From positions 1-33,236 of IMG/VR virus record IMGVR_UViG_3300005613_004108: a DNA stretch of 33,236 nucleotides, one strand, 5' to 3'. A model generated the notes under the pieces. The model was not told where the DNA came from, did no database searches, and worked only from the letters and a program-made list of their open reading frames with translations. A program made the position numbers and the translations under genes. This DNA comes from a virus. Every line of letters starts with the position of its first letter. The stretch's first letter is position 1. This document shows, piece by piece, positions 9,753 to 26,446 of the stretch.

Positions 9753-10636
9753 AAGTATCGCCTTCCGTTAAAACCTCCCCTCATCCCTTTCCAGTTGACA
9801 GCAATTGCTTCTGATGTATGAATTGATTCTTGGTGAGAACATTTTACAATCCAATCATAAATATCTTCTCTATCATCCAAACTAGCAGAAATTAATCTAA
9901 TTGCATCTTCTACAAACATTGGGTTTTGAGCTGCTACATGAGCGATCTCTTGCTCATCGACTCTTTTTATTATGGGATAAGGGAGGGTTTTTATCTGTGA
10001 CTCCACAGTTTCAATTATATCTTCAAGCCATACATAATGAGATTCAATGCCTTCAACGAGAACATCTGCATATGATCTTTGATTATGAGGATATCCGCTT
10101 TTTCCATTTTTGGATAAATCCTGACATAGTTCAGCAGAGCAAGGACAATATGAAGCATACTGTATTATTACCCCTTGAAAGAACCTAAAATCTAATGTAT
10201 CAGGAACAGGTTCTATCAAACTTTCGTCATGAAGTAAGAATAACTGACCCTCAAATCTACATTTATAATATATTGGAAATTGATGTTTAGATTTTATTGA
10301 TTCTCGTTTAATTGGCATTCTAAATTCAAACTTCATAAAGCTTGCTGTGCTTCCAACATTTTCTATCAAATCTTCTAAGATTTGTTTTATTAATTTACTC
10401 TTTAATGGAAGATCTAGATATGGTTTTAAAGTTAATAATAATCTTGACATTGAGATTCCTTTTGTATCTTTATCTAAATTAGTTCTCATAGATACATTTG
10501 CTATAAGTTGATGAAATCCACCATATTTAGATTCCAATTTAAAAGGAACCTCAACGTTTTCAACTCCGACTTGTTTAATAGGGATTCCAATGTTTGGAGT
10601 AGAACATTGAATATCTGGTAAAGAATCTTGTTCCAT
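9749..10636 (-). CDS. folE2: GTP cyclohydrolase IB (FolE2)
   Basis: The enzyme converts GTP to 7,8-dihydroneopterin triphosphate, the entry step to folate and to 7-deazaguanines. At 295 residues it is of normal FolE2 length and carries the family landmarks: PDIQ near the start, GISMSRL (60-66), YCPCSAEL with the metal/catalytic Cys (C164), YPHNQR (182-187, His 184), IIKRVDE (222-228), NPMFVED (238-244, Glu 243) and ESIHTSEA (270-277). It is the FolE2 (type IB) family and not FolE, and type IB enzymes can use metals other than zinc. It overlaps the next gene by ATGA. QueD, which uses its product, is encoded at the right end of the window. The role in 7-deazaguanine DNA or tRNA modification is inferred. 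Confidence 0.95.
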   Translation of the reverse strand: MEQDSLPDIQCSTPNIGIPIKQVGVENVEVPFKLESKYGGFHQLIANVSMRTNLDKDTKGISMSRLLLTLKPYLDLPLKSKLIKQILEDLIENVGSTASFMKFEFRMPIKRESIKSKHQFPIYYKCRFEGQLFLLHDESLIEPVPDTLDFRFFQGVIIQYASYCPCSAELCQDLSKNGKSGYPHNQRSYADVLVEGIESHYVWLEDIIETVESQIKTLPYPIIKRVDEQEIAHVAAQNPMFVEDAIRLISASLDDREDIYDWIVKCSHQESIHTSEAIAVNWKGMRGGFNGRRYL

Positions 10637-10648
10637 AAATAATTTCTC

Positions 10649-10912
10649 CTATAAATCTTTATACTTTTTATGAAGTTCTTCTTCTATATGTTTTTCCCAT
10701 TTTCGTTGTTTTTCATCTACTAATAAATCTCCAGTATGGAGATCATGTTCCATATCATTTGAACAATGGAATACCAACCCCTCAAATTCCCATGCTTGAT
10801 TATTTGTATCCTCTTCTATTTCTCCATTGAGAATATAAAAGTTTCTATCAAGAGTTACAACTTGGAAACTAATGGGTGATCCACAAATTGGGCATTGTCT
10901 TTCTTTAATCAT
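10649..10912 (-). CDS. Small zinc-ribbon-like protein, 87 aa
   Basis: This 87-residue protein begins IKERQCPICGSP, a CPxCG knuckle at residues 7-10. A second possible ligand set is HCSNDMEHD about 40 residues later (His/Cys), consistent with one zinc site. Between them lies a strand-rich stretch (ISFQVVTLDRNFYIL) and an acidic linker; the tail is a Lys/Glu helix. The ATG overlaps the beta-subunit stop by one base (TAATG), so it is translated directly behind RNA polymerase beta and 12 bases before folE2. It could be a polymerase accessory factor or belong to the pterin genes. No family is recognised. Confidence 0.65.
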   Translation of the reverse strand: MIKERQCPICGSPISFQVVTLDRNFYILNGEIEEDTNNQAWEFEGLVFHCSNDMEHDLHTGDLLVDEKQRKWEKHIEEELHKKYKDL

Positions 10913-13900
10913 TATTGTTTAACTCCTATAACTGTAAGATATGAATTTAATAACTTAACTGATTCAGGAACTGTATTTAATTCATGTTTTTCTTCAACTA
11001 GATTATTTTCAATAAAGTTTCTTATATAATTATTCTTCAAATCAATACAGTCAGATTTTGTTGTCAGAAATTCAAATAAGTTACATGGAGCATCATGACC
11101 AATTAAACATGCTGTTTCCATTTCTCCGCATCTTTGTCCACCCTTATTTTTTCGTCCACCAAGTGGTTGAAGAGTTCTTCTGGCATAGGCTCCAATTCCT
11201 CTTGCAGAAAGTTTCTCTTCTGCAATATGGACCATTCTAAAGAAATATAGTGGTCCAACAGCAACTTTATTTACTAAATTCTCTTTTGATAATGGATCAT
11301 ATATTGTTTGCTTAAACTTAGCACCAGTATATTCCATTGCTTTTTCAACATCTTCTATTTTACATGACTCAAATGGAGCTTGAATTATTGTTAAACTTTG
11401 AATAAAATAAGAATCTATTTCATCTGGTAGTTGCTCTTCAAACTGTTTGTAATACCAACCATCAGATGTTTTATCAATTATACTTATATAATCTAGTAAG
11501 TATTTTTTTATTTCATCTTGACTTTTATTCTCATTTAACATTTGTAACATATTTTGTTTTAAAGCGTCAACTGACATAGATAAGTGCATTTCATATAATT
11601 GTCCAATATTCATTCTAGAAATAATACCGAGTGGATTTATACAAATATCAAGATGTCTGCCATCTTCAAGTTGCGGCATTTTTTCATGAGGAACAATTCT
11701 TGAAATTACTCCTTTATTACCATGCCGGTTTGCTATTTTATCACCAACTCTAATTTTTCTAAAGTGAACACCAAACATTTGAACATGAATCCCATTTATT
11801 CTTTCTCGTTTTTGTTTATACTTGCCAACAAATGAGAACTTATCTAAACTATGCTCTCTAATTATTTTCATTGCTTGATCAGTTGGTAATAAGTTTTTTA
11901 TAACTGTTTGTAGAACTTTTTCTTCAACTTGCTGATCTTGTAATCGTTTTTCAATCCATTCACTATATATAGGAATTTCCTCATTCCAGGTATTACCATA
12001 TAAATTAACTTCTGAAATAATAAAGTTTTTTCTAGCTACTAAAGTGATTGGCTCTATAAATGGTGAGTAGAGCTCATCTGAATTTAGTTTATTAATTATT
12101 GCATATGGTTCACCTGCTTTAATCGTTTGTAGTTCATCTGGTAAAGGTTTATAGTCATCACCCTTTTCAAGTGATACTAGTACTTTATCTGGAGTTAAGT
12201 TAAATGATAAGTCTTTATAATGGACAGATGTTAATGTATCTTCATTTGCTAAACGATCTGAAATAATAATACCATCTTCATAATTATTACCATAATAAAT
12301 CATTACTCCAGTTAAGAGATTTTTTCCTATATTAATTCTTCCATTATTACAAAAATTACTTTCTGCAAGAATATCACCAGCTTTAAATTTATCTCCCATC
12401 TTAACATAGATATTCATAAAGTCAAGATGTTCAACATAGATTTTTCTATAAGATATATCAAAAATATCTACTTCGTCGTCAACATACTGAGTAATAATAT
12501 ATTTTTTATCAATGTAAATAACTAACCCATCTTTCTTTGCTCGTTTTACAAATTGGGTATGATCAGTATACAAACCTTCGCAACCAGAACTTATCAATGG
12601 AGTATCAAAATCCTTTAACATAATTGCTTGTCTCATTTGTGATGACGCCATTTGTAGTCTAGTTTGATCGTCATGCTTTAAGAAAGGAGTCATAGATACT
12701 GGTGTTGAAATTGGTTGTTTATCACAAATTTCATTTGTGAATTTTAGGTTTTCATCCAGTTTAACATTTGGAACCAAATTTTGTAATACGCCACAGTTAT
12801 CACGGTCAGGAGTATCTACTGGGCAAATTCTTCCAAACATTGTTGGACATATATCTCGTAGATGTTTTGGAATATTTTCTCTTTTAAATCCTCCTGGTCC
12901 TAACAGACTAATTCTTGATAATTTTGTAAGTTCTTCGATTGGATTAATTGAAAAATCAAATTGAACAATATCAGACACATTACAATCTGAAAGAATTTGT
13001 GTAGAATTAATATTAAATTTTGGTTGACGAGCAGTTCTATTTGAGAAACATAGATCAAATATTATCTTTGATATTTTTCCCAATATCACATACTCAAAAC
13101 ATCGTACTCTTTTATTTGTAAAAAGAGTGTCGTCAATATCTTCGTATTTTAATATATCAATTAGTTCATCTATTACTGATTCTGTTTTTAAGAATTTGGC
13201 TGTGATAAGATCTACTTTACTAATTAAGTCTAATGCATATAATATATCTTCTCCTTTAGATTTCGCATTATATCTAGAATATGTCCTTCCGATTTCTAGA
13301 ATGAAATCATCTTGAGTATACCCTCTAGACGAATCGTAATATTCTTTTAAATCGGTTCTTAATATTTCATATAAATTTGGAGTTACTTCATCAATCTCAC
13401 CATCAAGATTAAACTTTTGAAACGCTTCATCTATTCCATAATATGCCATAAGTATTAATCCAAATGGAATTTTCTTTCCTAAGAAACTTATGTTAATACG
13501 AGGAACTTCTTTTTCTTTAAAAACCATGATAGTCGCTACATTAGTTCTCAACTTAATGTTTTCGCCCCTTGTTACAAGAGGAATATCAAAAAGTTGAAAT
13601 AAAGGAATTTTCTTTCTTCCATTAATATATATGTAGTTTTTATCAACTAACTTGGGAATGAAAAGACTTAGGTCAATATTAGCACTACCCTTTTGTAGTT
13701 TTATTGATAAAGTTTGTTTTAATGTTTTTGATAATTCTCCAGAAGAAAATTTTGAATCTTTAAGACTTACATCATTTATCGTAAAACCAATTTCTTCAAC
13801 TGGTTTAACAATATCTCGAACCATTGGTAAAATTTGTTCATAATCTTTTTCTCTTATTGTAAAGATATTATTATCTTCATTTTGAATTTTAAATGTGGGA

Positions 13901-13914
13901 TTAACTATGTTCAA
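10912..13914 (-). CDS. rpoB: RNA polymerase beta subunit, phage-encoded, bacterial type
   Basis: This is a compact beta subunit (1000 residues; bacterial ones are about 1150-1340). It starts at a TTG at 13914 with AAAGGAGG 9 bases upstream. Landmarks in order: fork and rifampicin-pocket region 318-342 (QFDFSINPIEELTKLSRISL), GRICPVDTPDRDNCG (361-375), SSQMRQAIML (424-433), NNYEDGIIISDRL (543-555), GDKIANRHGNKGVISR (724-739) with the catalytic-site lysines, NPLGIISRMNIGQ (760-772), and the C-terminal LQPLGGRKNKGGQRCGEMET clamp segment. It forms half of the active centre with beta'. It is not split in two as in the phiKZ/PBS1 type. Losses are in the lobes and lineage inserts. Alpha, omega and sigma genes are not in the window. 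Confidence 0.95.
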   Translation of the reverse strand: MNIVNPTFKIQNEDNNIFTIREKDYEQILPMVRDIVKPVEEIGFTINDVSLKDSKFSSGELSKTLKQTLSIKLQKGSANIDLSLFIPKLVDKNYIYINGRKKIPLFQLFDIPLVTRGENIKLRTNVATIMVFKEKEVPRINISFLGKKIPFGLILMAYYGIDEAFQKFNLDGEIDEVTPNLYEILRTDLKEYYDSSRGYTQDDFILEIGRTYSRYNAKSKGEDILYALDLISKVDLITAKFLKTESVIDELIDILKYEDIDDTLFTNKRVRCFEYVILGKISKIIFDLCFSNRTARQPKFNINSTQILSDCNVSDIVQFDFSINPIEELTKLSRISLLGPGGFKRENIPKHLRDICPTMFGRICPVDTPDRDNCGVLQNLVPNVKLDENLKFTNEICDKQPISTPVSMTPFLKHDDQTRLQMASSQMRQAIMLKDFDTPLISSGCEGLYTDHTQFVKRAKKDGLVIYIDKKYIITQYVDDEVDIFDISYRKIYVEHLDFMNIYVKMGDKFKAGDILAESNFCNNGRINIGKNLLTGVMIYYGNNYEDGIIISDRLANEDTLTSVHYKDLSFNLTPDKVLVSLEKGDDYKPLPDELQTIKAGEPYAIINKLNSDELYSPFIEPITLVARKNFIISEVNLYGNTWNEEIPIYSEWIEKRLQDQQVEEKVLQTVIKNLLPTDQAMKIIREHSLDKFSFVGKYKQKRERINGIHVQMFGVHFRKIRVGDKIANRHGNKGVISRIVPHEKMPQLEDGRHLDICINPLGIISRMNIGQLYEMHLSMSVDALKQNMLQMLNENKSQDEIKKYLLDYISIIDKTSDGWYYKQFEEQLPDEIDSYFIQSLTIIQAPFESCKIEDVEKAMEYTGAKFKQTIYDPLSKENLVNKVAVGPLYFFRMVHIAEEKLSARGIGAYARRTLQPLGGRKNKGGQRCGEMETACLIGHDAPCNLFEFLTTKSDCIDLKNNYIRNFIENNLVEEKHELNTVPESVKLLNSYLTVIGVKQ

Positions 13915-14107
13915 TGGTTTCGCCTCCTTTAAAATTAGAATTATATTTCTGTAAAGCTTTTAGTAGGTCGTCATCCTCAATATAATAAGGATCTTGATTT
14001 AATCGTAAAGCATTCATTATTAATTGAGTTAATCGAAGATCTGGACATTTTTCCCAGATCTCCTTAATTAACTCTAAAATTGGTGCTATTCTTTCTGGAT
14101 CTCTCAT
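13901..14107 (-). CDS. Small conserved-type protein between beta' and beta, 68 aa
   Basis: This helical 68-residue protein begins MRDPERIAPILELIKEIW and continues with PDLRLTQLIMNAL and a closing YYIEDDDLLKAL. I recall similar small MRDPxRI...W...PDLRLxQLI...EDD proteins in many bacteria and phages with no established function. It overlaps rpoC by ATGA and rpoB by 14 bases, so all three are translated in series. Its position between the two large subunits suggests a polymerase-associated part, but it does not look like omega (no MARxT or K/R-rich omega core). The PDLRL pattern is seen; the polymerase link is inferred from position only. Confidence 0.7.
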   Translation of the reverse strand: MRDPERIAPILELIKEIWEKCPDLRLTQLIMNALRLNQDPYYIEDDDLLKALQKYNSNFKGGETIEHS

Positions 14108-16809
14108 ACTATTTTTTCTCCCTTTAAAATCTTATCCATAACTCCAGAATATCTACCTTCATATAAAATACCCTGTAAAATTGCCCGTTTTGGATTTGAA
14201 AAAGCCATAGCAAGAATCCAGCTTTCTTGATTTGGAACACTCTGGACACTAAAATAAGATGGTTCTACTTTATCTCTATTTTCTAGAAGTCTCCATTTTT
14301 TATAATTTTTCCACATCAGTTGAGCAACAACACATTCAAAATGGACATGATGTATATCTTTATCATATACATCAAATAATGATTCAACTATATCTGTATA
14401 TGTTTTTCCTTTAAATTTATGTAATAGTTCTGCAACTGAGGCAAGATCTCCAATAATATCTTTTTGTTTCATCGCTTCGTTATTATCATCAGATCCTTGA
14501 ATTACAGCTGAACCAGAAGTATGAAATGTTCGTAAAACTAATTGAGTACCTCTTTCACCAAGGGTTTGAGCAGCTATAATACCTACAAAACGACTATTTA
14601 ATTTTTTATATAAATCCCCATAACATGTCTTACAAATCTTTGGTGATTTACATAAAATTGGACTTCTAATAAATATAGTTTTTCCAATAATGTCTTTATA
14701 GTTCTCTTTAGTAATTTTTTCTAATTGATTATTGACTTCTTGGTATCTATTTATAAGCATTTTTGCTTTTCTTTCATTTTTAACATGAACTTCTAAAAGA
14801 TCTTTTGTACCACAATCATCTAGATCTAAATCAATTTGTAAATTGGCACAAGTAAAGATTAGTTTTCTAGATAGATAACCGCTGGTACCAGTATTTAGTG
14901 CAACATCTAAAAGTCCTTTTCTACAACCATATGTTGAATAAAAGAACTCTTCTTGATTCAATCCTTCAAGTAATGAATTTTTAATTGGTAAAGGTAGAAT
15001 TTCCCCATCAAAATTTGATATAAAGCCTCTGGTTAAAACAAGCTGTTTAACTTGATCCCAACTACCTCGTGCTCCTGATGCAATCATGTGCGCGTAATAA
15101 AAATTATCTCTCATTGTTTCATTTACGGATTTATCAGAAACAGCTAATAATTGATCTCTAAGATTTTCACTTGTATAAAGCTTTTCTTTTAATTCTGCGG
15201 ATCCGTGCATTTTACAATCTTTAAGAGACATTGTACAACCAAATAAGGTTGCATATTTAAACCCAATTTTCTTTATGTCATCTAATACTTTTATGGTGAT
15301 TTCCTTATTATATTTGTCTTTTATATCATTTAAGATCTGGAGTAATCTATCCTTATTTACTTCTCCTTCAATGATTGGATAATCTTCTGGTAAATATCTG
15401 TTAAACTCTTCTTGACCTTTTGTAAGGGATTCATTTTGACTTTCTTCTTTAATCAATTGGTTTGAAAAGTTTGGTGACGTTAAATAGTAAATACCTAAAA
15501 CAACATCTTGACTTGGTGTCGTGGTTAACTCTTCATTTGCTGGACTGTTTAAATTAGATGAAATTAAAACTTTATTAATAATTTCTTCTCTTGCTTCATC
15601 TGTTACTGGAATATAAACTGCCATTTGATCCCCATCAAAATCAGCATTAAATGGAGGGCAAGCCAAAGGATGAATTTTTATCACCTGATCCCTTGTGACT
15701 TTTACTTTAAAACCTAGCATTCCAAGTTTATGTAAAGATGGTTGTCTATTTAATATACAGTATTTATCTTTAGTAACATATTTACATAATTTTAATAAAA
15801 CAAGTGATTGATTATCAATACATTCATCAACAAAATCAATGGCTTTATTAAGAAGTTTAAATTTACCAATTTCAATTATTCTTTTGGCAATAGGTAATTT
15901 AAATATTTCAAGAACCATTAAATATGGTAGCTTACATTCATCTAAAGCTAATGTTGGATCTGGTGTAATAACAGCTCTTCCAGAAAAATCAATTCGTTTC
16001 CCAAGAATATTTCCTCTTATCAATCCTTCTTTTTTAGACATTTTTTCAAGTATTCTAGTATACAGTTCGTTAACATCTTTTTGAAGTTGTTTAAAATAAG
16101 AATAGTATAGCGCTTTATCTCTTTGAATATTGATAATAGTATCTTTCATAATTTCTTTTTTAGTAAGTATTTGAACATAATACCTATTAATTTTATCCAT
16201 CAATTGTTTATTTTGTCCAGAACTTTTAGATGTTGGCCTCAATTCTGGGGGTAACACTATTATTTTATCTATTAATAAATTATCAATATTATCAAGTACA
16301 ATTTTCCATTCTGTAAGGCCGTCCTCAACTGCATCAGCAGCATTAGTTTCTACTAATACTTTTATTGCATCACTTCGTTCCCAAGTTTGAACTCCTTTTG
16401 GTATTTGATCTATATTAGTTTCAACAACAAACTCTTGATCACTAATATATAAAACGCTTTTATCATTTTTCATAAGATTATCTAGAGCTTTCTTTAAACC
16501 TTTTCCGCCAAGATCAACTAGTAAATCATAAAATAATGGATTTACAACTGGTATAGGTAGCGTTATTTTTGCAAATCGTTTTCGTCTTTCATCACTATTG
16601 ACAATATCTACTCCACATTCTTTACATTTACTACCTTCTTTTGAAACTCCATAATAAGTACCACATTGGCAGGTATAATTTCGTACTGGGCCGAATATCT
16701 GTTCAGAGAATAATCCATTAGGATGAAACTTTTTTTTACCAAATGTTTTTAGAGACGTCACTTCGTCTAATTCTTCACAAAAATTTTCATAATTAAGTAT
16801 TTTTGGCAT
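14104..16809 (-). CDS. rpoC: RNA polymerase beta' subunit, phage-encoded, bacterial type
   Basis: A single-chain compact beta' (901 residues; bacterial ones are about 1150-1400) with a GGAGAG site before the ATG. In order: N-terminal zinc knuckle C47/C49/C62/C65 followed by DERRKRFAKI; IRGNILGKRIDFSGRAVI (264-281); NRQPSLHKLGMLGF (354-367); the catalytic NADFDGD at 388-394 with all three Asp; the bridge-helix/trigger-loop region with FYSTYGCRKGLLDVALNTG...SGYLSRKL; the second zinc site (DCGT and CKSPKICKTCYG); and GIIAAQTLGERGTQL...RTFHTSG. The C-terminal jaw is much reduced. All chemistry-bearing modules are present, so it should be active with beta. It is preceded by the Ubl-conjugation cassette on the same strand with a 5-base gap. 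Confidence 0.96.
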   Translation of the reverse strand: MPKILNYENFCEELDEVTSLKTFGKKKFHPNGLFSEQIFGPVRNYTCQCGTYYGVSKEGSKCKECGVDIVNSDERRKRFAKITLPIPVVNPLFYDLLVDLGGKGLKKALDNLMKNDKSVLYISDQEFVVETNIDQIPKGVQTWERSDAIKVLVETNAADAVEDGLTEWKIVLDNIDNLLIDKIIVLPPELRPTSKSSGQNKQLMDKINRYYVQILTKKEIMKDTIINIQRDKALYYSYFKQLQKDVNELYTRILEKMSKKEGLIRGNILGKRIDFSGRAVITPDPTLALDECKLPYLMVLEIFKLPIAKRIIEIGKFKLLNKAIDFVDECIDNQSLVLLKLCKYVTKDKYCILNRQPSLHKLGMLGFKVKVTRDQVIKIHPLACPPFNADFDGDQMAVYIPVTDEAREEIINKVLISSNLNSPANEELTTTPSQDVVLGIYYLTSPNFSNQLIKEESQNESLTKGQEEFNRYLPEDYPIIEGEVNKDRLLQILNDIKDKYNKEITIKVLDDIKKIGFKYATLFGCTMSLKDCKMHGSAELKEKLYTSENLRDQLLAVSDKSVNETMRDNFYYAHMIASGARGSWDQVKQLVLTRGFISNFDGEILPLPIKNSLLEGLNQEEFFYSTYGCRKGLLDVALNTGTSGYLSRKLIFTCANLQIDLDLDDCGTKDLLEVHVKNERKAKMLINRYQEVNNQLEKITKENYKDIIGKTIFIRSPILCKSPKICKTCYGDLYKKLNSRFVGIIAAQTLGERGTQLVLRTFHTSGSAVIQGSDDNNEAMKQKDIIGDLASVAELLHKFKGKTYTDIVESLFDVYDKDIHHVHFECVVAQLMWKNYKKWRLLENRDKVEPSYFSVQSVPNQESWILAMAFSNPKRAILQGILYEGRYSGVMDKILKGEKIV

Positions 16810-17253: not shown

Positions 17254-17595
17254 TTATAACACCTCTTGTTCTTCATATTCTATCTCATCCCACGGAGTAA
17301 AATAACAATCATTTAAGTTAAAACAACATAACATAGTTTGTATGATAACTTTTATATTATCAGAAATCTTTTCTTCTCGTAATTTATGTGGAATACAGAA
17401 GTTCCCATTTTTTGGGTTTGCATTTGGATGTGGAACATTAATTATAATAAGATCAATATTATCGTTTACTGTCTTTATAATATAATCTTTAATATAAAAT
17501 TTTTTTGGTAATTTTGTAATTGTATATAACGTATTTTTAAAAACCAATTTGTTTGGGATGAAAAGTCCTCTTATTAAATGATCTCTTATTTCCAT
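17254..17595 (-). CDS. Short E2 (UBC-like) conjugating protein candidate
   Basis: This 113-residue protein contains HPN at 56-58 and GNFCI with Cys 67, preceded by a strand IDLIIINV (47-54) and followed by helical segments. In eukaryotic E2 enzymes the HPN motif is followed by the catalytic Cys in a GxIC[LI] context 8 residues after the Asn; here it is 9. The strand-HPN-loop-Cys arrangement therefore matches the E2 active site. The protein is shorter than a canonical E2 core (about 150), as are several prokaryotic E2-like proteins. Its ATG overlaps the stop of the E1-like gene (TAATG; GGAG upstream), giving a coupled E1-E2 pair. It would carry the Ubl as a thioester from Cys 67. The motif is seen; the fold is inferred. 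Confidence 0.6.
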   Translation of the reverse strand: MEIRDHLIRGLFIPNKLVFKNTLYTITKLPKKFYIKDYIIKTVNDNIDLIIINVPHPNANPKNGNFCIPHKLREEKISDNIKVIIQTMLCCFNLNDCYFTPWDEIEYEEQEVL

Positions 17596-18455
17596 TAAGC
17601 AGCTCCTGTTTCTGGAATGAGTTCAACAAAAACGTCAGATCCATCTTGAAAAACAGATATTACGAAATTATTAAATTCACATTGTAAATTTATAACAGAT
17701 GCTAAATTGATAATAAGGTCTTTGCTTGAGGTTAAAGATTTTTTTGGTATCATTCGTTCTGCAACTGGGAATACTCTGCTCCCAAGAAATACTTGTATAT
17801 CTTTTCTTTTATTCATATCCAAAATTGGAACAATCTTATCTGGTAAATTAATAAACTTCTCACTTTCAATAACATTATCATAAACAATATCATACATAGA
17901 TTTATCTATATGCTTGACATAATCTAACTCATATTTTTGAACGGCTTGATTATTGATCAACGATTTAATTGTATTGCTATGAACTAGCATTGAAACAGTT
18001 GATGCAGCATATCTTAGATCATCTTTTGTTAATTCAATCAGATATTTTCCAACTTGTGGAATTTTATAATTGACATTTTTTCGGCAGTCAACAATTAAAT
18101 ATCTAGATGATATGTAGAGTCTGGCGTCAATCTTATTTTGACGATCATATGTATAATCGCGGCAATCTAAAATTAAATCTGTTTCTGGGATTTTTGTTTC
18201 TCCCTCTATATATTTAGTTTGAATTCCTAAAATTTCTGTTTCATGATTTTTTTCACTAATTATATCTGCTAAAGCTTCAACTTTTGGTATACCTATATCA
18301 ATTTGTCTATAGATAGAGTTCTTTAAATTTCTTTTTTCAACTGTATCGTGGTCTACAATCACTAATTTCTCAATTCCCTCAAGTGTGGAGAGAGCATCAA
18401 CAACGAAACCTCCAAGGGTTCCTAATCCAATTACTACGATACTTTTATATATCAC
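17595..18455 (-). CDS. Second E1/ThiF/MoeB-like adenylating protein, divergent
   Basis: The protein has 286 residues and starts at a GTG at 18455 with AAAGGAG 9 bases upstream. The N-terminal Rossmann core is a ThiF-type adenylation domain: GLGTLGG (10-16), acidic VDHD (34-37), N43 in KRNLKNS, R50 in YRQ, and K58 in GIPKVEA, all at E1-like spacing. LILDCRD (95-100) matches the strand that carries the ATP-site Asp in E1 enzymes. The C-terminal half (about 130-286) is divergent, ending in a strand-rich DGSDVFVELIPETGAA. No Cys lies where E1 proteins form the thioester, so it may only adenylate, act as a regulatory E1 half, or hand over directly to the E2-like protein encoded next. Two E1-like genes in one cassette is unusual. 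Confidence 0.75.
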   Translation of the reverse strand: MIYKSIVVIGLGTLGGFVVDALSTLEGIEKLVIVDHDTVEKRNLKNSIYRQIDIGIPKVEALADIISEKNHETEILGIQTKYIEGETKIPETDLILDCRDYTYDRQNKIDARLYISSRYLIVDCRKNVNYKIPQVGKYLIELTKDDLRYAASTVSMLVHSNTIKSLINNQAVQKYELDYVKHIDKSMYDIVYDNVIESEKFINLPDKIVPILDMNKRKDIQVFLGSRVFPVAERMIPKKSLTSSKDLIINLASVINLQCEFNNFVISVFQDGSDVFVELIPETGAA

Positions 18456-18515: not shown

Positions 18516-19067
18516 TTACTCCGCCTTCTTTTTTAGACCTTCTTCAAGAAGTTCTGCTTCAAATTTTCCTGTTGGTACTGGTCTAAAATGTGATTTATAT
18601 TTATATAATTTATTTGCTATCTTCACTGGATAACTAAGAGGAAGAGCAAAAGAATATTCTATTATTTCATGTGTCTTTAAACGACTAGAAACTTCGATAG
18701 GCGGGTCTATCGTTTTTAGTTCTTCTTTAACAATTGTATCGAAGTATTCTGCATCTTTAGCATTTTTTACTTTCATTGCTCTACGAATAAATTGATCATT
18801 TCTTGATGAACTATTTATTTTCCCGAAATTTTTTCTTCGTACTAAAGCTTTCATTGCTCTTCCAAAAGCTTTGTTTTTTCCATCTGAAATGCGAAATATA
18901 TCTAGAAGAGAACAAATAGAAACCCCTCGTGCTTCAATTCTATTTTTAGTAGTATTAACAAGAACGCATGTTGTATATGCATTATTTATCAAAGGGGTTT
19001 TTTCATAATAAAATGATATCTTATCAACACCATTTTTAGCAAGGACTTCCTGAACCGATTCAAGCAT
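18516..19067 (-). CDS. Unknown protein inside the Ubl cassette, 183 aa
   Basis: The start at 19067 (MLESVQEVLAK) is preferred because AAAGGATC lies 6 bases upstream; an ATG at 19082 has none and abuts a hairpin. The centre carries RIEARGVSICSLLDIF and FGRAMKALVRRKN, a pattern (ARGxSxCSxxDxF...GRAxxAL) I recall from phage and plasmid hypotheticals without known function. It is basic with an alternating strand start and a helical end (LEEGLKKKAE). It lies between Ubl and the second E1-like gene, bracketed by hairpins, so it may be expressed at a different level from them. It could be a cassette-specific adaptor or substrate; the sequence does not decide. Confidence 0.65.
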   Translation of the reverse strand: MLESVQEVLAKNGVDKISFYYEKTPLINNAYTTCVLVNTTKNRIEARGVSICSLLDIFRISDGKNKAFGRAMKALVRRKNFGKINSSSRNDQFIRRAMKVKNAKDAEYFDTIVKEELKTIDPPIEVSSRLKTHEIIEYSFALPLSYPVKIANKLYKYKSHFRPVPTGKFEAELLEEGLKKKAE

Positions 19068-19082
19068 TTTAGATCCTTTCAT

Positions 19083-19120
19083 TAATATATTAGGACCCCA
19101 GAAGGGGTCCCGATATATTA
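19083..19120 (-). terminator. Long composite hairpin downstream of the Ubl gene
   Basis: An inner GGACCCC AGAA GGGGTCC stem (19093-19110) is extended by TAATATAT/ATATATTA (19083-19090 and 19113-19120) beyond a two-base internal mismatch, 15 base pairs in all. It starts 5 bases after the Ubl stop codon. There is no T-tract on the minus strand, but the AT arm may serve. It also sits just before the 183-residue gene, so it could reduce read-through or set its expression. Confidence 0.65.
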
Positions 19121-19125
19121 AAACG

Positions 19126-19584
19126 TTAACAACCTTTCTTTCCTGCTGGTTTTAGGAACTCAAGATTGTCACCCTCTTTTAGAATATAGTCCCCAGGTAC
19201 TTCTTTTCCATTAACCAATCCGGTTGATAGACGATCAACATTAAGAACTTCTCTGATGAAATCACCCACTTCTTTAACACTCTTTCCAGTTACGGGAAAG
19301 TTGCCTGATGAAGCACCACATGAAACATGAATTGTGGTTGTGGTTCTTGAACCAAATGGAGCAGATGGTTTTGTCAAAGTACTTTGACCAGTAAATTCTA
19401 CTCCGGTTACACCCTTGCTTGGCGCAATCGTGGCACCACCGGAATATGTTTCCAATATTGAATTAATAACAACATCTTTTGTCTTTTTGCTAACTCCGAC
19501 AATTCCAAGTTCATCAATACACATCCGCTTTAAGTCCTTGGATGTTTTGGCTTCTAGTTCTTCACGTGTAAAACTTCTTCCCAT
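19126..19584 (-). CDS. Ubiquitin-like modifier with N-terminal SAP-like domain
   Basis: The protein has 152 residues with AAAGGAG before the ATG. Residues 6-47 (TREELEAKTSKDLKRMC..., GIVGVSKKTKDVVINSILE) look like a SAP/HeH-type helix-turn-helix that binds nucleic acid. A Gly/Ser/Thr/Pro linker (about 49-80) leads to a C-terminal beta-grasp domain of the MoaD/ThiS/ubiquitin type. It reads TTIHVSC strand, PVTG strand, KSVKEVGDFIREVL helix, STGLVNGKEV strands, and DYILKEGDNLEFLKP as the closing L-x-x-GD-x-x-x-F signature. It ends AGKKGC. Removal of the terminal Cys would expose a Gly, as JAMM proteases do for other prokaryotic Ubls. PRTRC-C proteins, as I recall, end in TKG. It is the likely modifier for the E1, E2-like and JAMM proteins around it. 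Confidence 0.75.
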   Translation of the reverse strand: MGRSFTREELEAKTSKDLKRMCIDELGIVGVSKKTKDVVINSILETYSGGATIAPSKGVTGVEFTGQSTLTKPSAPFGSRTTTTIHVSCGASSGNFPVTGKSVKEVGDFIREVLNVDRLSTGLVNGKEVPGDYILKEGDNLEFLKPAGKKGC

Positions 19585-19589
19585 GTTTT

Positions 19590-20276
19590 TTAATTCTCCT
19601 TTACAATTCTTGTTTTCGCATCTGTTGTCATACTCAAAATATCAAAGTATATTTCAGAGCGATCGTACTTTCCTTTTATAACAGCGTTATAAAAGGCCCA
19701 ACACATAATTGTTGCAACCCCTAAGTTTGTAAAATACAATTGAGGGTCAGAGTGTGATAATTCGTCGCAAGACATTTCATCAGGTAACTTATCTTCGGGA
19801 TTGGAAATTTCAGGATGATATGCACATAGGTCAGGAGTTAAATCTCTCCCTTCTCTTCTGACATAAATTTGAACATTACCATCTGTAAATTCATTCCCAC
19901 CAGAAATGAGGGTAACATCTTGTAGTTGCTTACAGTAATTAGATACTATCATTCTGGTTTTATGATTATCTACGCATAGAAAAACAATATTGCCTTCTTT
20001 AATAACTTCAGAAACATTATCTGGGTTTATGAAGGCGTCATATACATCTAAACCAAGCTGACTAAATTTTAACTCCAGTTCTGTTGCTTTAATATCAGCT
20101 TTATTACCTATTCTATTAAATTCTTGTCTCTCATAATTTTTCTGCTCATATTCGTCTCCATCTACAAGGAGAATTTCAGCAGTTAGATCATTTGAATAAT
20201 TTATAAATCTACATAATCTTTCAATGAGTATAGAACCTACACCACCAAGTCCAATGATAGTTATATTTAAATCCAT
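19590..20276 (-). CDS. E1-like ThiF-family activating enzyme (PRTRC-ThiF type)
   Basis: The protein has 228 residues from the ATG at 20276, with AAGGAG 9 bases upstream inside the end of the JAMM gene; an earlier ATG at 20297 lacks a site. All E1 landmarks are present: GLGGVGS (9-15), acidic VDGD (38-41), NYERQ (47-51, the N...RQ motif), K59 in GNKADIKA, and FLCVDN with D103. A Cys at 170 in the MSCDE context fits the thioester Cys. The order closely follows ThiF-like proteins of the PRTRC cassette. It would adenylate the C-terminal Gly of the Ubl encoded 5 bases downstream and take it as a thioester. The Ubl-JAMM-E1 adjacency supports a dedicated pathway, not sulfur carrier chemistry for thiamine or molybdopterin. 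Confidence 0.85.
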   Translation of the reverse strand: MDLNITIIGLGGVGSILIERLCRFINYSNDLTAEILLVDGDEYEQKNYERQEFNRIGNKADIKATELELKFSQLGLDVYDAFINPDNVSEVIKEGNIVFLCVDNHKTRMIVSNYCKQLQDVTLISGGNEFTDGNVQIYVRREGRDLTPDLCAYHPEISNPEDKLPDEMSCDELSHSDPQLYFTNLGVATIMCWAFYNAVIKGKYDRSEIYFDILSMTTDAKTRIVKEN

Positions 20277-20280
20277 TACA

Positions 20281-21741
20281 TTAGACTCCTTTTCCAAAAA
20301 CCTTTTTAAACATACCCATTAGCGTTTTATCTTTTTCTGGAATAGGAACAGAAGAAGAATTAGGCTCTGGAATTTTTTCCACTATAGTGTTAGATTCCTG
20401 TAGTAAGTGCTCAGTTTCCTTATCTATTATTCCTTTATAATTTTTCTTATATTCTTCATAGGGAATTTCTACAGATTTCTCTAATAACTCATAGCAAAAT
20501 GGGCAAACTTCATCACCCTCTGAAACCATAAATGTATTTGTGCAAACAGAACATCTGCGAAAACTGGAATGTGTAACTGATCCATCTTCGTTTCTGTCAA
20601 GCATATGTTCAATTTCAGAAGCTGGTGTGAAGTTATCAACCATCATATCTTCATCAAATTCATCTTCTATTTCATCTGTAATTTGCTCAATAACCCAATC
20701 TATTTTAGAATCTCTGAAAAAGCAGTGCTCACATGGGTTAAAGTCATCATCTATTTCTTCAGTTTTTGGGAATATAACATTAGGTTTTTTATGACTATCA
20801 ATAACTTTAACTGTAGAATGTTTATTTGTTTTTCCTATATGGTGAACGCCTGGAGTTTGTTTAGTCTTCCACCCTCTAGCAGAAGCCCAAGCACGAGCAT
20901 CAAAATGCTCTCCCCAACCAGAAGCTCCATACATTCCATAACCACCAGGATATCCTGCATATGTATAAGTTCCTTTCTCTACCATCAGCAACCATTTTTT
21001 ATTAAAAATTCTTTGATGGTCTGTTACATTAACATCATATCGTTTATCGTATTTTCTATAAGAATATGTATATTTTGCTGACTCTACTTTATCTTCTACT
21101 AACTTTCCATTTACTACTTTCCAAACTTTTCTGACTGGTTTATTCTCTACTTGATCAATTTCAGACATTAGAATGAGGTTATCTAGATAGTCCGTTGGAT
21201 CCACCATAACACGATAACCATTTGCGACAATTGATGCTGATATACTTACAAATTCTTCATCAGCATCACCAATTGTAATATGAAGTCCATCAAAATGCTC
21301 TTCGTCAGCATCATCTGTTCCAGAATGAAAAGCAGACATAGAAGCATGGCAATGAAAAGTTCCTATCATGGACATGCCATTAATGGTCATACCTCTATTA
21401 TAGTCAATTGCAGCAGATGTAACTTTTTGACGCGGAGGAACCATTTTGAATTTCTTTGTGGTTTCATCATAAAATATTAAAACAATGGATTCTGACCTAT
21501 GTTCTTTATAAACTGCTTTGAAAAATTCGATGATTTTTGCAACAGTAGGGCCAGGAATTTTAGGAATATGCATTGTAGCAGAAGCAGCAACACTTTCCAA
21601 AACGGAGATGTTTTTTACAGGAGCTAAACTTTCCATAACTCCAAGTTTCTTTTTTAAAAAGATACCTTCCTTACCGACGATATAAAATATATCATCTTCT
21701 GGCATTGGATTTTGCCCATCGTTAACATGAATTTTAAACAT
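20281..21741 (-). CDS. JAB/JAMM metallopeptidase with C-terminal zinc tail (PRTRC-A-like)
   Basis: The protein has 486 residues; AAAGGAG lies 8 bases before the ATG, which overlaps the E2-like stop by 8 bases. The JAMM zinc site is clear: FHCH with H130 and H132, then S140 and D143 in HSGTDDADE. This is the HxH...SxxD motif, followed by DGLHITIGD. A Glu in the preceding helix or strand (80, 85 or 93) would complete it. A Gly/Tyr/Trp-rich stretch (about 256-290) follows. Then come a CxxC at 337/340, a very acidic region (351-369), and a four-Cys knuckle at C397/C400/C413/C416, which may be a zinc ribbon or treble clef. The expected job is trimming the Ubl C-terminus or removing it from targets. 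The zinc tail may recruit an E2 or substrate. Confidence 0.88.
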   Translation of the reverse strand: MFKIHVNDGQNPMPEDDIFYIVGKEGIFLKKKLGVMESLAPVKNISVLESVAASATMHIPKIPGPTVAKIIEFFKAVYKEHRSESIVLIFYDETTKKFKMVPPRQKVTSAAIDYNRGMTINGMSMIGTFHCHASMSAFHSGTDDADEEHFDGLHITIGDADEEFVSISASIVANGYRVMVDPTDYLDNLILMSEIDQVENKPVRKVWKVVNGKLVEDKVESAKYTYSYRKYDKRYDVNVTDHQRIFNKKWLLMVEKGTYTYAGYPGGYGMYGASGWGEHFDARAWASARGWKTKQTPGVHHIGKTNKHSTVKVIDSHKKPNVIFPKTEEIDDDFNPCEHCFFRDSKIDWVIEQITDEIEDEFDEDMMVDNFTPASEIEHMLDRNEDGSVTHSSFRRCSVCTNTFMVSEGDEVCPFCYELLEKSVEIPYEEYKKNYKGIIDKETEHLLQESNTIVEKIPEPNSSSVPIPEKDKTLMGMFKKVFGKGV

Positions 21742-24304
21742 TAATTAAACTCCTTTCGTCTTTGAGTAGGTACATATATGAATTTCTAGATTTATTAATA
21801 AGCCCATGAAAATTTGGCCATGCTAAAGTATAACCTGCTTCTGTTTGCATTTTTGGACTCAATCTTGGGTTTGGAATACAATCAAGTATTGTGCATTTTC
21901 TTATATAACTATCAAGAACATAATAATCAGCATAACCACTAAAACTATCAAGATTTACAATCTTTAAAGATGATCTAGAACTAGTTTTCATTACTAACCA
22001 TCCGGAATTACTTGTATAATCTTCTATTCCTTTAATTATATCACCAGCTTGGTACTTAATATTAGTTGCTATAGAAGCATGTTGTAGCTTACTCCATTGT
22101 TTAGATTTAAGACCTACTTTCTTAAATTTTTCCACCATATCACTAAACCATAAAGTACAACAATTTGAACATAATACTAAAGGTTCCCCTCCAGTATCTG
22201 TTATAAAACCAACGATAATATTTGTATCTTTTTTTGGGAAATATGGTATTCCTGCTTCTCTAGCAATAATTTTGGTTCCAGCTGAAATTCTACCATAACT
22301 ATTTTCAATTTTTCTAATTTTTCCCGTCTGAATAGTTGCGTTTTTTCCGCTGATATATTCTTCTTCGCTTAATTTACCATCTTTATCAGCTAGTATAAAA
22401 GAAACACTATTATTATCACTTTGCATTTTAAATGCTTGAATCATTTTTACTGTTAGTATATCCATTGGATTCTTCCAATTTGCAACAACTACTTTATCTC
22501 CAATACTAAAAGTTGTATCTAAATTAAAACTCTCAACATGTAATGATTCTTTTGTTAGAATATATTTTTTCATATCACTTATACTAGGTGGATTCATCAG
22601 TAGGCGATCAGCTTCATAAACTATACCTGAGGGAGTACCCCAAACTGCATTTTTAATGGAAGTTCTAGATTCCGTTTTAGCTATTAATAATTTTCTACCA
22701 ACAGTAACTAATGGGGGTAGCTCTTTAATTTTTTCTTCTTTGTATAAACATTCCATGGTTCTTCCTGAACTGATATTTAGTAAGTATGCGTCCCCATAAA
22801 ATTTTGGATGTTGATTTATAAACTTTAATGCTAAATTTCCATAGTTATCTGGTTCAACTCCTTCAAGAGAAACTATCGAACCATTATGGATAGGTCCTGC
22901 TAATATTCTTTTTAAATAAACCAATTTATCCCCAAGTTTTATATTCATTCTACCATATTTAAAATTTTTGAGAGTCATAACTTCTCCCTCTGTATTTTCA
23001 AGAATATAGAACTCGCTACCCAGTTTAGCTTCATGCATTCCATCCCGAGATTTTCTAATATGATTAACCTTTTTATATATATTATCTCCACGATAATTTT
23101 TAATAACTAAAATATCACCCGCTTTTATATCAACACCATTTTTTAGAGTACCTTCATCTGAAAATCTTAACTTCTTAACTTGTTCATAAAGATACCTTTT
23201 AAACTTTCTAGTTAGCTTAAATTTAATAAGGCGACCTTTGTCAGTTTCTACTCGGATATATCGTATAGCATCACTATCAAAGAAACCAATGAATGAGTCA
23301 ATAAATGCTGTAACTTTTCCCTTTTTTATCATAAAAGGATCACCTACGTGAACAAAGAAATCTTTTTTTAGAAACATACCTGAGGCTACATCATAAAACA
23401 ATTCTACTCTTTTTCTAGATCTTTTAGTTGGTTTTTCAGACATCCCCGTATCATGAGGTCTAACAAAAACACTTGCTAATGTTTTATAGTATAGATTCCC
23501 TTTGGATTCAACTCGGTAATGCTTTTTCATTTCTTCTATAGCAATACCCAAGTTATAACCAATATCAATCCAATCTACATTGTATATAAACATTGGATTT
23601 ATTTTAGATAAGGCTTGCCAACCCAAATATGTATCAACTCCAGCAATGTGCTTATAAGCATGATAGTTATATGTATAGTCTGTATTAAATTCAGCAGACC
23701 AGAAAACCATGATTGCTTTTTCAACTGCTGAACTCAATGTTGGAGTTTTTCCAGAAATAGCAGAACCAAAACAAATATATTGTGTATCCGAAATATTTAA
23801 CATAGGATTTTTAAAAAGATAATCTCCAAGACCATTCAGTCTAGCAGCTCTCAAATAAGTTTGACCTGCTGCTATTTCCTTATATTCATTAACATATAAA
23901 AGAAAAATTACATATGGTAGTGCTAATGTGAGTGTATGTGGTCCATAACCTGATGAATAATCTTTCTCTTTGTACCCATATTCCTCTAGCTTTCCACTTT
24001 CTTTTAATTTATCAACTTCATGTTTTAATGACATACTAACCTTAATTGTCCGAAAAGCTGGAGGTTCTTCAATTACAAGTATACTTCCTTTAGTTCCTTT
24101 TTCGATATATCTACAATTTGGGGGAACGATAGTATTATTAAGTTGTAAATTTGAACTTATTCTTTTAAGATAATCATTAGTTGTTAATATTTTTTTATTC
24201 ACTTTTGGTATCGAATCATCTTTGACTGTGTTTGAATATTCTGATCTATATAAATGTGCATAGCAATCATTTATTCTAATTTCATTCATCATCACTGTAG
24301 TCAT
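21734..24304 (-). CDS. PRTRC-B/prokaryotic E2-like N-domain fused to long beta-rich region
   Basis: The protein has 856 residues from the ATG at 24304 (GGTGA 7 bases upstream; an ATG two codons earlier is too close). The N-terminal about 260 residues resemble the E2-related protein B of PRTRC cassettes. They show ILVIEEPP (75-82), YGPHTLTLALPYVIFLLYV (120-138), FKNPMLNISDTQYICFGS with N170 and C178 spaced 8 apart as in the E2 HPN-to-Cys loop, then a conserved-looking VFWSAEFNT. The remaining about 580 residues are strand-rich, with repeated GDKVV/GDILV/GDKLV entries suggesting several SH3/KOW-like barrels, plus a CSNCC at about 715. I infer an E2-like carrier with a large substrate-binding extension. 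PRTRC-B itself may be catalytically silent, so activity is uncertain. Confidence 0.6.
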   Translation of the reverse strand: MTTVMMNEIRINDCYAHLYRSEYSNTVKDDSIPKVNKKILTTNDYLKRISSNLQLNNTIVPPNCRYIEKGTKGSILVIEEPPAFRTIKVSMSLKHEVDKLKESGKLEEYGYKEKDYSSGYGPHTLTLALPYVIFLLYVNEYKEIAAGQTYLRAARLNGLGDYLFKNPMLNISDTQYICFGSAISGKTPTLSSAVEKAIMVFWSAEFNTDYTYNYHAYKHIAGVDTYLGWQALSKINPMFIYNVDWIDIGYNLGIAIEEMKKHYRVESKGNLYYKTLASVFVRPHDTGMSEKPTKRSRKRVELFYDVASGMFLKKDFFVHVGDPFMIKKGKVTAFIDSFIGFFDSDAIRYIRVETDKGRLIKFKLTRKFKRYLYEQVKKLRFSDEGTLKNGVDIKAGDILVIKNYRGDNIYKKVNHIRKSRDGMHEAKLGSEFYILENTEGEVMTLKNFKYGRMNIKLGDKLVYLKRILAGPIHNGSIVSLEGVEPDNYGNLALKFINQHPKFYGDAYLLNISSGRTMECLYKEEKIKELPPLVTVGRKLLIAKTESRTSIKNAVWGTPSGIVYEADRLLMNPPSISDMKKYILTKESLHVESFNLDTTFSIGDKVVVANWKNPMDILTVKMIQAFKMQSDNNSVSFILADKDGKLSEEEYISGKNATIQTGKIRKIENSYGRISAGTKIIAREAGIPYFPKKDTNIIVGFITDTGGEPLVLCSNCCTLWFSDMVEKFKKVGLKSKQWSKLQHASIATNIKYQAGDIIKGIEDYTSNSGWLVMKTSSRSSLKIVNLDSFSGYADYYVLDSYIRKCTILDCIPNPRLSPKMQTEAGYTLAWPNFHGLINKSRNSYMYLLKDERSLINV

Positions 24305-24306
24305 TC

Positions 24307-24684
24307 TCATTCACCTCGTAAATATTTGTATTGTTTAGCATATTCTGTTAAAATTTTCTCTGGTCTATGATCATTTATTTCCCAAACTCTTTGCTTCTTC
24401 ATAATAACAGTTTCGCTAGATTTATTTAATTCACTCCTACGTATCACAAATAAAACTAGAAGATAGATATCTTCACTTTCTCGTTCTAAACATAAAAACG
24501 CAATTTCAGATTGATTCCTTCCTGGTACTTCTAACGATAAAAATATATTTGGACCTTTTGGTAATAAGAGAGCATTTTCAATATTGCTTTTTTCTTGTTC
24601 AAATATTTCACCACATAATTCTCGAATTTTCTCTACATTGCTATCTGTTTTTAATTCCTCAAGCAATTCTTTTAAAATCCCCAC
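24307..24684 (-). CDS. Unknown protein, 125 aa, GTG start
   Basis: It starts at a GTG (24684) with AAAAGGAG 8 bases upstream. The N-terminal half is helical and acidic (LKELLEELKTDSNVEKIREL). The centre has two strands (NIFLSLEVPG, SEIAFLCLERESEDIYLLVLFVIRR) and the end is helical. The stop overlaps the start region of the E2-like gene, so it may be co-translated with the cassette. No family is recognised. The alternating strand/helix order could be a small adaptor fold, but no motif supports a function. Confidence 0.6.
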   Translation of the reverse strand: MGILKELLEELKTDSNVEKIRELCGEIFEQEKSNIENALLLPKGPNIFLSLEVPGRNQSEIAFLCLERESEDIYLLVLFVIRRSELNKSSETVIMKKQRVWEINDHRPEKILTEYAKQYKYLRGE

Positions 24685-25020: not shown

Positions 25021-26064
25021 TTATTTACCCTCCCGTTTGTCTGAGTGTACTAGGTCGTCCACTTCTTTATTTGTCTCATCAATATATTTACTCATCATTA
25101 AGCATGAGTGGTTACATAACTTACAATAGTGTGTCTTATCTGAGTTTATAGTATTATATAAGGTATGTGGAAGTTGATAAGCTGAATTAAATAAGGTAGT
25201 TACATCATAAGTTGGAGTTGATACGCCTCTAATTCTTAAACACAACCTTATTGAACCATCAGCATCAACTGTTATATTATGGATACCATCTTCTAATTTA
25301 CAATCAAAATTAGAAGGCAAGGTATTAAACATTTGTGGTAATAGCAAGTCCTTCATATGTATAAGCAATTTATTATCGTTTAAAAATTCTTGAAACATTA
25401 TTGCTAGGTCAAATGATGGTTTAACAAGAGATGCTTCATCTCTGACATTTGAGAAATCATAAAACCTATTTTTTGCAATATCAACAAATGTTATATCACT
25501 ATAGATTTCTTCTTCGCTTAATTCTCTAACAAGATCATACAAGAGATGTTGATTATGATTCATTACTGTAATTTCAGCTACTACATCTTTTACTAAACCA
25601 GATGACTGCATCTCCTTTAATCTCTTTAATCCCTCAATACTTTTTTTGATTCTATCTTCATTAACTCCAATTTCGTTAAATATAGGATCAACCGAACTGG
25701 TAAATCCTTCCACGTGATCAACTTCATTAAACAACTTTTTAATTAGAGGTTGAATCTCTGGTGTGTTATTACTAATTATTGTATAATATATCTCGTTATC
25801 ATTACAATAATTAATAATTTCTGATAAACCTTTTCGTAGAAGTGGTTCGCCACCATAAAATATATGGAACATATTAGGATTATGAATTTTCATTTTCCTG
25901 AGTGCTTCAATAACTACATCTGTTGGCATTTCGTTTCTTATATAATATCCTATATTAGGATAAAGATGTGGCATTTTTTCATAATCTCTCACAATTGCGC
26001 AATAGTCACAGTGTAGATTACATAGTCTTGTTAATAACCAGTTTACTATTCTTATTTTACTCAT
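25021..26064 (-). CDS. Radical SAM protein with SPASM/twitch-like C-terminus
   Basis: The protein has 347 residues from the ATG at 26064, with GAAGGAT 7 bases upstream; an ATG at 26082 lies inside the preceding gene. The [4Fe-4S] motif is C15-N-L-H-C19-D-Y-C22 (CxxxCxxC). The GGE motif appears as YGGEPLL, and a SAM-binding strand VVAEITVMNHNQ follows. The C-terminal domain has further Cys: DCKLEDG, RLCLRIRG following DADGSIRL, and the cluster HYCKLCNHSC. That is the layout of SPASM/twitch auxiliary-cluster enzymes which modify peptides or proteins. It is too long and has the wrong C-terminus for QueE. The substrate is unknown; the NSSS-tagged protein encoded directly upstream (gap of 1 base) is a candidate partner by position. 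Confidence 0.8.
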   Translation of the reverse strand: MSKIRIVNWLLTRLCNLHCDYCAIVRDYEKMPHLYPNIGYYIRNEMPTDVVIEALRKMKIHNPNMFHIFYGGEPLLRKGLSEIINYCNDNEIYYTIISNNTPEIQPLIKKLFNEVDHVEGFTSSVDPIFNEIGVNEDRIKKSIEGLKRLKEMQSSGLVKDVVAEITVMNHNQHLLYDLVRELSEEEIYSDITFVDIAKNRFYDFSNVRDEASLVKPSFDLAIMFQEFLNDNKLLIHMKDLLLPQMFNTLPSNFDCKLEDGIHNITVDADGSIRLCLRIRGVSTPTYDVTTLFNSAYQLPHTLYNTINSDKTHYCKLCNHSCLMMSKYIDETNKEVDDLVHSDKREGK

Positions 26065-26065
26065 A

Positions 26066-26446
26066 TTACGATCCTTCTTCATGTATTATTTTTCCACCAT
26101 GCTTTCTAACAAGATCAAGAAATTTTTCTCTTCGATCCATCCAGTTTCGATTTATTTCAGCATAAATAGCAAATTTATTATTATCTAAAATTTTAGAAGT
26201 TTTTTCAAAAGAATCTTTAGACATATTCCAAAATGTATGTGGGACTCCTCTTGCAACTGACACCCAATCACAAGATTCTGCTTGAGCGTATGAAATGAGT
26301 CCTCTTTTATTATTAAAAAATCTAAAGGACTCACCCCATACAAATCGAAATTCCTTCTCTATATCTTTTCTTAATAATTTCTGATCAATTTCAATTATAA
26401 AAGAAGTTGATGAACTATTAGTTACAAAATCGCCTTTTATTTTCAT
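26066..26446 (-). CDS. NSSS-tag protein, 126 aa (family copy 1)
   Basis: It begins MKIKGDFVTNSSSTSFII, the N-terminal signature shared by five proteins in this window. AGGAG precedes the ATG. The body is basic and aromatic (FRFVWGESFRFFNNKRG, FAIYAEINRNWMDRREKF) and differs from the other copies. The protein ends with EEGS, and the radical SAM start follows after one base, so the two are coupled. I know the FV[ST]NSSSSSF N-terminus from many bacterial and phage hypothetical proteins, with no function that I can cite. Conservation of a short N-terminus with unrelated bodies points to a tag that directs or processes the protein. Confidence 0.7.
   Translation of the reverse strand: MKIKGDFVTNSSSTSFIIEIDQKLLRKDIEKEFRFVWGESFRFFNNKRGLISYAQAESCDWVSVARGVPHTFWNMSKDSFEKTSKILDNNKFAIYAEINRNWMDRREKFLDLVRKHGGKIIHEEGS

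Follow-up and report, generated by a model that had tools for sequence, protein, structure and literature searches.

The window, the whole stretch of DNA analysed here, is a viral record of 33,236 bases from IMG/VR. On its minus strand an open reading frame of 152 codons (19126..19584, read from 19584 to 19126, ATG to TAA) encodes a fusion of a Rho_N-type helical domain and a ubiquitin-like (Ubl) domain, whose C-terminal end is ...LEFLKPAGKKGC, with GKKGC as the last letters. The plus strand of the same interval has many stop codons. Viral contigs of IMG/VR, scanned twice, yielded another 38 loci that encode near full-length relatives (39–78% identity) in a single gene order, so the frame is a real gene; 33 distinct Ubl sequences, the window's included, were compared. 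A search of annotated phages for the Ubl itself gave no significant match. In a collection of bacterial and archaeal genomes only one contig was found, in a MAG labelled Thermoplasmatales; it looks viral and carries the same phage RNA polymerase genes, so that no host can be inferred from it.

The gene is the fourth in the order E2-D, JAMM, E1a, Ubl, E1b, mini-E2 and rpoC, which is kept in 39 of 39 loci with the exception of the E2 of one locus (L008), where the profile missed the E2-like protein and an ORF of 339 aa lies in its place. The window encodes a phage multi-subunit RNA polymerase. The β′ subunit gene (rpoC; 14104..16809, minus) was identified by profile and is linked to the cassette in all 39 loci; the β subunit (10912–13914, minus) and a terminase (1433–3085, minus) were assigned by reading the sequence only. 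A gene for a 188-aa protein with no Pfam match (18516..19082, minus) is present in only six of the 39 loci and is for that reason not counted as core.

The main intergenic gap of the cassette holds a stem-loop directly after the Ubl stop codon (19082..19121, minus), with arms at 19082–19099 and 19104–19121 that are 89% complementary. A strong hairpin of non-conserved sequence (median z −4.6) is also predicted for nearly all relatives, within the 75 bases that follow the Ubl stop. The element may plausibly end transcription or shield the 3′ end, which would yield an excess of modifier over enzyme.

Elsewhere in the window, five distinct small proteins (minus strand; 26066–26446, 29665–30123, 30120–30542, 30548–30895 and 32300–32719) have a common N-terminus, MK(I/L)KxDF(V/I)TNSSSxx(F/Y), that is also seen in locus L040; the three of them that were scanned have no Pfam match. 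There are also genes, all on the minus strand, for a GTP cyclohydrolase FolE2 (GCHY-1; 9749–10636, 8e-62), a member of the 6-pyruvoyl tetrahydropterin synthase family (PTPS; 32722–33150, 2e-30) and a radical SAM protein (25021–26082). Together these three may represent a 7-deazaguanine pathway, perhaps for DNA modification.

Domain structure of the modifier

Residues 5–52 (19429..19572, minus) form a Rho_N-type helix-extended-loop-helix domain, identified by Pfam profiles and by VIA-align. Rho_N (PF07498) matches 26 of the 33 members (best E 1.1e-8), the window protein itself at E 0.0065 [16.9 bits against a cut-off of 24.9]. VIA-align places residues 5–52 on Rho (Z 7.6, r.m.s.d. 2.8, 47 aa), with Rho in each of the top eight rows and the SAP protein Tho1 below it at Z 5.0; the Z values for both domains of the protein are modest, and the sequence profiles agree with them independently. 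The sequence-only reading had described the N-terminus as SAP-like and as a helix-turn-helix. SAP proper (PF02037) was set aside as the less likely identity of the domain, since it matches only two of 33 members and weakly (best 0.021); the closest family is Rho_N, a cousin of SAP, and the helix-turn-helix likewise gives way to the Rho_N-type arrangement. The AlphaFold2 model of the 152-aa protein (mean pLDDT 75.7) has helices at residues 7–11, 15–26 and 36–47 and is confident over the first 47 residues. A linker follows (residues 53–82; 19339..19428, minus), variable in length in the alignment and with pLDDT of about 50–70.

The N-terminal domain of the Rho transcription termination factor, which residues 5–52 resemble, is part of the RNA-binding region of Rho. 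In Rho it is joined to a cold-shock domain and an ATPase, whereas in the phage protein it is joined to a Ubl. The net charge of the helical domain (window protein, +1; relatives, 0 to +8) neither favours nor rules out nucleic-acid binding. Because the domain is Rho_N-like and its net charge is just +1, a role in protein–protein contacts is no less possible than the putative tethering to DNA. Directly upstream of the E2 gene, loci L006 (1417–1779; Rho_N E 0.042), L007, L026 and L031, which are some of those with short JAMM proteins, encode a further small protein whose N-terminus is Rho_N-like.

The C-terminal part of the protein (residues 83–151; 19132..19338, minus) is a β-grasp domain of the ubiquitin/ThiS/MoaD type. 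Here the Pfam profile TGS matches 27 and ThiS 19 of the 33 members, and VIA-align superimposes residues 94–150 on MoaD, ubiquitin and SAMP2 with Z of 5.0–5.5. Foldseek alone, run with the Ubl model, gave no significant match. The β-grasp is partial in the AlphaFold2 model, the first hairpin being uncertain (residues 85–90 below pLDDT 50). A cysteine in the VSCGA turn of this domain, C89 (19318–19320, minus), is kept in 31 of 33 sequences and is far better conserved than the terminal cysteine. The earlier proposal of a ubiquitin-like modifier fused to a small helical domain is borne out in that both domains are real by profiles, fold and the 38 relatives, with the gene on the minus strand; structure prediction, which it had named as a check, returned the helical domain and the partial β-grasp.

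The GxKG terminus and its tails

The motif G148-x-K150-G151 (19132..19143, minus) does not vary among the 33 distinct sequences. It is better conserved than most of the Ubl domain and probably constitutes the mature C-terminus. What follows G151 varies: nothing in 20 sequences, C in ten, and DRKGC, R and YK in one each. In the window it is Cys152 (TGT; 19129..19131, minus). Mapping the Cys-tailed state onto the RpoC tree takes seven changes; six of these are imposed by branches with good support. With GxKG invariant, the tail variable and the cysteine state changed at least six times, Cys152 is best described as a dispensable tail, and the alignment indicates that the residues after G151 behave as a disposable, little-constrained appendage behind a functional glycine. 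The sequence-only reading had seen a one-residue Cys cap awaiting JAMM trimming. Its view of the post-glycine residue as disposable stands; a conserved cap as a family feature was discarded, since 20 of the 33 sequences stop at Gly.

Cysteine is nonetheless by far the commonest tail (11 of the 13 tailed sequences end in it), above the expectation for random tails, and TAA or TAG comes at once after it. A Ubl-Gly-Cys end that is itself functional, as a nucleophile or redox handle in those lineages that have it, would account for this pattern. We think it improbable, given the six or more gains and losses, the otherwise unchanged cassettes of close relatives that lack the cysteine, and the existence of the R, YK and DRKGC tails.

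Ubl units with similar ends are encoded by other phages and by a plasmid. Bacillus phage vB_BauM_KLEB27-3 gp199 (L055:731–1438, minus), annotated hypothetical, consists of four head-to-tail Ubl repeats of 57 aa (51–57 of 57 residues identical), each ending GVKG, with a tail MPRIVVK; its gene, which resembles a polyubiquitin gene, lies upstream of E2-D, JAMM and ThiF genes. A 263-aa protein of Vibrio phage D69 (L051:1310–2101, plus) has three Ubl-like units that each end GTKG and adjoins E2-D-like and JAMM genes, all of these annotated hypothetical. In a Cytobacillus plasmid, E2-D, JAMM and ThiF genes have beside them a gene for two Ubl repeats that end GTKG, the second followed by one Phe. In Salmonella phage Arash (L052:1519–4539, plus), consecutive genes encode E2-D-like, JAMM and ThiF-like proteins, of which two carry the annotation of structural protein, and a single small Ubl-like ORF upstream ends exactly at GTKG.

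To be released as monomers, the poly-Ubls need a protease that cuts after GxKG, and the adjoining JAMM protein is the obvious candidate; it would probably remove Cys152 as well. The best reading is that the JAMM protein next to the Ubl gene cuts after GxKG. Removal of the cysteine cannot be the main job of this enzyme, because it is intact in every locus, including those with tail-less Ubls; the presence beside the Ubl of a JAMM protein with all its catalytic residues does support the earlier reading. By eye, tail type has no evident correlation with the length of the JAMM protein.

Enzymes encoded around the Ubl gene

Three of the proteins have PRTRC-like features, with matches to the E2-D, JAB and PRTRC ThiF profiles that are all below the curated cut-offs. 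The E2-D-like protein (858 aa; 21734..24310, minus) resembles Prok-E2_D (PF14460, E 5e-4, below cut-off) and has a long C-terminal extension. N172 and C180 are invariant in 31 of 31 sequences, and the N-x7-C-x-G stretch around the E2 cysteine is common to this protein and PRTRC_B. Downstream of the cysteine there is no invariant His in the 31 sequences; F208-N209-x-D211 is found instead. The JAMM/JAB protease (486 aa; 20281..21741, minus) is PRTRC_A-like, with a C-terminal CxxC region [TIGR03735, E 5e-11, 42.5 bits, below the cut-off of 101.8]. Its residues E84, H130, H132, S140 and D143 are invariant in 34 of 34 sequences, those from loci with tail-less Ubls included, so that deconjugation has to be among its tasks, provided that the Ubl is its substrate at all. 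E1a (235 aa; 19590..20297, minus) is a ThiF-family activating enzyme (PF00899, 1.2e-18; TIGR03736, 1.1e-9) in which the ATP-site residues and the candidate catalytic C177 are invariant in all 33 sequences.

E1b (286 aa; 17595..18455, minus) is a second ThiF-family protein (PF00899, 1.8e-16). GxGxxG, D35, K58 and D97 are invariant, Arg50 of the adenylation site is present in only 11 of 33 sequences, and no Cys is conserved across all 33. Speculatively, E1b could serve as the non-catalytic subunit of an E1 heterodimer. Conservation of its C-terminus, ...ETGAA, is due in part to an overlap with the start of the following gene and its ribosome-binding site (AGGAGCTGCTTAATG). That gene overlaps the end of E1b by one base and encodes the mini-E2 (113 aa; 17254..17595, minus), which probably has the UBC fold, as judged by motif, AlphaFold2 model and VIA-align. 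H56 and C67 of its HPN...C motif (H56-P57-N58 and C67) are invariant, and P57 and N58 are at least 90% conserved. The model has a pLDDT of 95.9, and E2s occupy all 50 rows listed by VIA-align, at Z of only 4.1–4.9; there is no Foldseek match under 0.001 and no Pfam match at cut-off. The best PDB profile match is yeast Pex4 at the HPN-C motif (E 0.11), and plant PEROXIN-4 is also found, both with weak E-values.

Loss of the adenylation-site Arg from E1b in most relatives, like the fixed linkage to rpoC and rpoB, might be expected if the Ubl were never conjugated and served as a structural or regulatory subunit, binding the E1, E2 and JAMM proteins and RNA polymerase through its Rho_N and β-grasp domains. 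A non-covalent role of this kind would not require the invariant GxKG, the catalytic cysteines or the JAMM residues, and we regard it as very unlikely.

The presence of two E2-like proteins also bears on whether the Ubl works as a sulfur carrier in the manner of ThiS, MoaD and CysO. Adenylation by E1a would then lead to a thiocarboxylate that supplies sulfur for modification of a cofactor, nucleotide or DNA, and the JAMM protein would free the glycine, as JAMM proteins do for the sulfur carriers of the QbsE/QbsD and CysO/Mec+ systems. By profile and by fold the C-terminal domain is indeed closest to ThiS, TGS and MoaD, and the phage has nucleotide and pterin genes (GCHY-1, PTPS and radical SAM). 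Arguing the other way, besides the two E2-like proteins within the cassette, are the invariant Lys150 as second-last residue of GxKG, where sulfur carriers typically end in GG, and the recurrence of the GxKG end in PRTRC and poly-Ubl proteins beside E2-D; nor was a rhodanese or cysteine desulfurase noticed among the ORFs of the window. A sulfur carrier is accordingly an outside chance in our judgement.

Proposed pathway and comparison with known systems

We favour, with a probability of roughly 0.75, the reading that the Ubl serves as modifier in a conjugation system which the phage carries and which derives from the PRTRC/Prok-E2_D (Iyer class 6d) type, its tail being cut by the JAMM protein and Gly151 conjugated. 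The precursor would comprise the Rho_N-type helical domain, a flexible linker, the β-grasp and the C-terminal GxKG. The JAMM protein would most likely cut the tail (Cys152) off after Gly151, as in polyubiquitin precursors, and E1a would adenylate the exposed glycine. By thioesters at C177 of E1a and C180 of E2-D, and possibly also by way of the E1b/HPN mini-E2 pair, the Ubl could then reach the amines of its target proteins; reversal of the conjugation would fall to the JAMM protein. In this way the target would gain a Rho_N-type domain. The constant proximity of the cassette to the genes for the phage RNA polymerase makes a protein involved in transcription the most plausible target; because the loci share ancestry, this synteny is weak evidence for a target. 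A more specific and doubtful proposal is that the Ubl, by its Rho-type domain, marks the transcription machinery (phage RNA polymerase, host RNA polymerase or Rho) by means of a two-tier cascade of E1a/E2-D and E1b/HPN-E2, recruiting the target to RNA or DNA or blocking Rho-dependent termination.

Ubiquitin-like conjugation in bacteria is known mainly as a host defence. The present loci indicate that viruses themselves carry a full ubiquitin-like cassette, with a Rho_N-tagged modifier and beside RNA polymerase genes. The GxKG end common to PRTRC, phage poly-Ubls and Rho_N-Ubls suggests a testable processing site for the little-studied PRTRC class, and related cassettes, mostly labelled hypothetical, are open to study in the deposited phages KLEB27-3, D69 and Arash. 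In the literature searched, outside whose scope lay most subscription journals and preprints, we found no paper that describes the cassette, and the titles and abstracts of the 26 papers in which PRTRC appears do not treat its biochemistry; a comparative jumbo-phage paper makes no mention of JAB, ThiF or Ubl (PMC7824862).

Like the phage Ubl, eukaryotic polyubiquitin has a variable residue or residues after an invariant Gly, which a deubiquitinase removes: the last residue is an additional Cys in human UBB and Asn in yeast UBI4. The eukaryotic end is GG and that of the phage Ubl GxKG, and the two are analogous, homology not being shown at this level. In the Bil/Bub anti-phage systems (BilABCD), as in the phage cassette, Ubl, E1, E2 and JAMM are together in one operon, and the DUB preprocesses the Ubl, exposing its Gly (review PMC11354881). 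BilA, however, is a tandem Ubl, and the E1 of Bil combines an inactive domain, an active one and a CYS domain in one polypeptide, whereas the phage cassette has two separate short ThiF proteins and belongs to a phage rather than a defence island. The poly-Ubl cassettes of KLEB27-3, D69 and the Cytobacillus plasmid likewise place E2-D, JAMM and ThiF genes beside a Ubl whose units end GxKG, and they have short tails beyond the final unit; they differ in having tandem repeats without a Rho_N domain.

The closest comparison is with PRTRC, composed of PRTRC_A (JAB), PRTRC_B (Prok-E2_D), PRTRC_C (Prok_Ub) and PRTRC ThiF. The order B(E2)-A(JAB)-ThiF is the same in the plasmid systems and in the phage cassette, and both have the JAMM H-x-H-x7-S-x2-D and the E2 N-x7-C-x-G. 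In class 6d as described by Iyer et al. (2006; PMC1779556), the Ubl is small and its C-terminal glycine strongly conserved; that glycine is present here as G151, invariant in 33 of 33. Plasmid PRTRC protein C has GxKG at the matching place in seven proteins, five of which stop there while two run on for more than 30 residues. The window Ubl has no PRTRC_C (TIGR03738) or Prok_Ub (PF14454) match up to E 1, nor do the 33 members match Prok_Ub in Pfam up to 0.1. Homology of the Ubl to PRTRC_C was also sought with hhalign and set aside; only the last 12 columns align (E 0.021), so the kinship rests on motif and context. Family profiles of the phage E1a and JAMM proteins match PRTRC-like proteins of plasmids and phages at 18 to 110 bits, with E-values that refer to a database of only 20 proteins; the phage E2 profile matches PRTRC-like systems weakly, except those of Cytobacillus and KLEB27-3. 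No PRTRC ParB-family gene was recognised near the cassette in this fragment record, part of whose ORFs were profiled.

There are also differences. The phage Ubl has an N-terminal Rho_N domain and 152 aa, against about 68 aa in PRTRC, and the phage E2-D lies within an 858-aa protein without the invariant downstream His, a residue that is absolutely conserved in class 6d E2s (Iyer et al., 2006; PMC1779556). The cassette is phage-borne, beside RNA polymerase genes, and its matches to PRTRC profiles are below cut-off or absent. On these sequence comparisons we file it as a diverged PRTRC-like variant that would function in the manner of class 6d, not as a strict member of PRTRC; what appears to set it apart from that class is the Rho_N fusion, the second E1-like protein and the HPN-type mini-E2.
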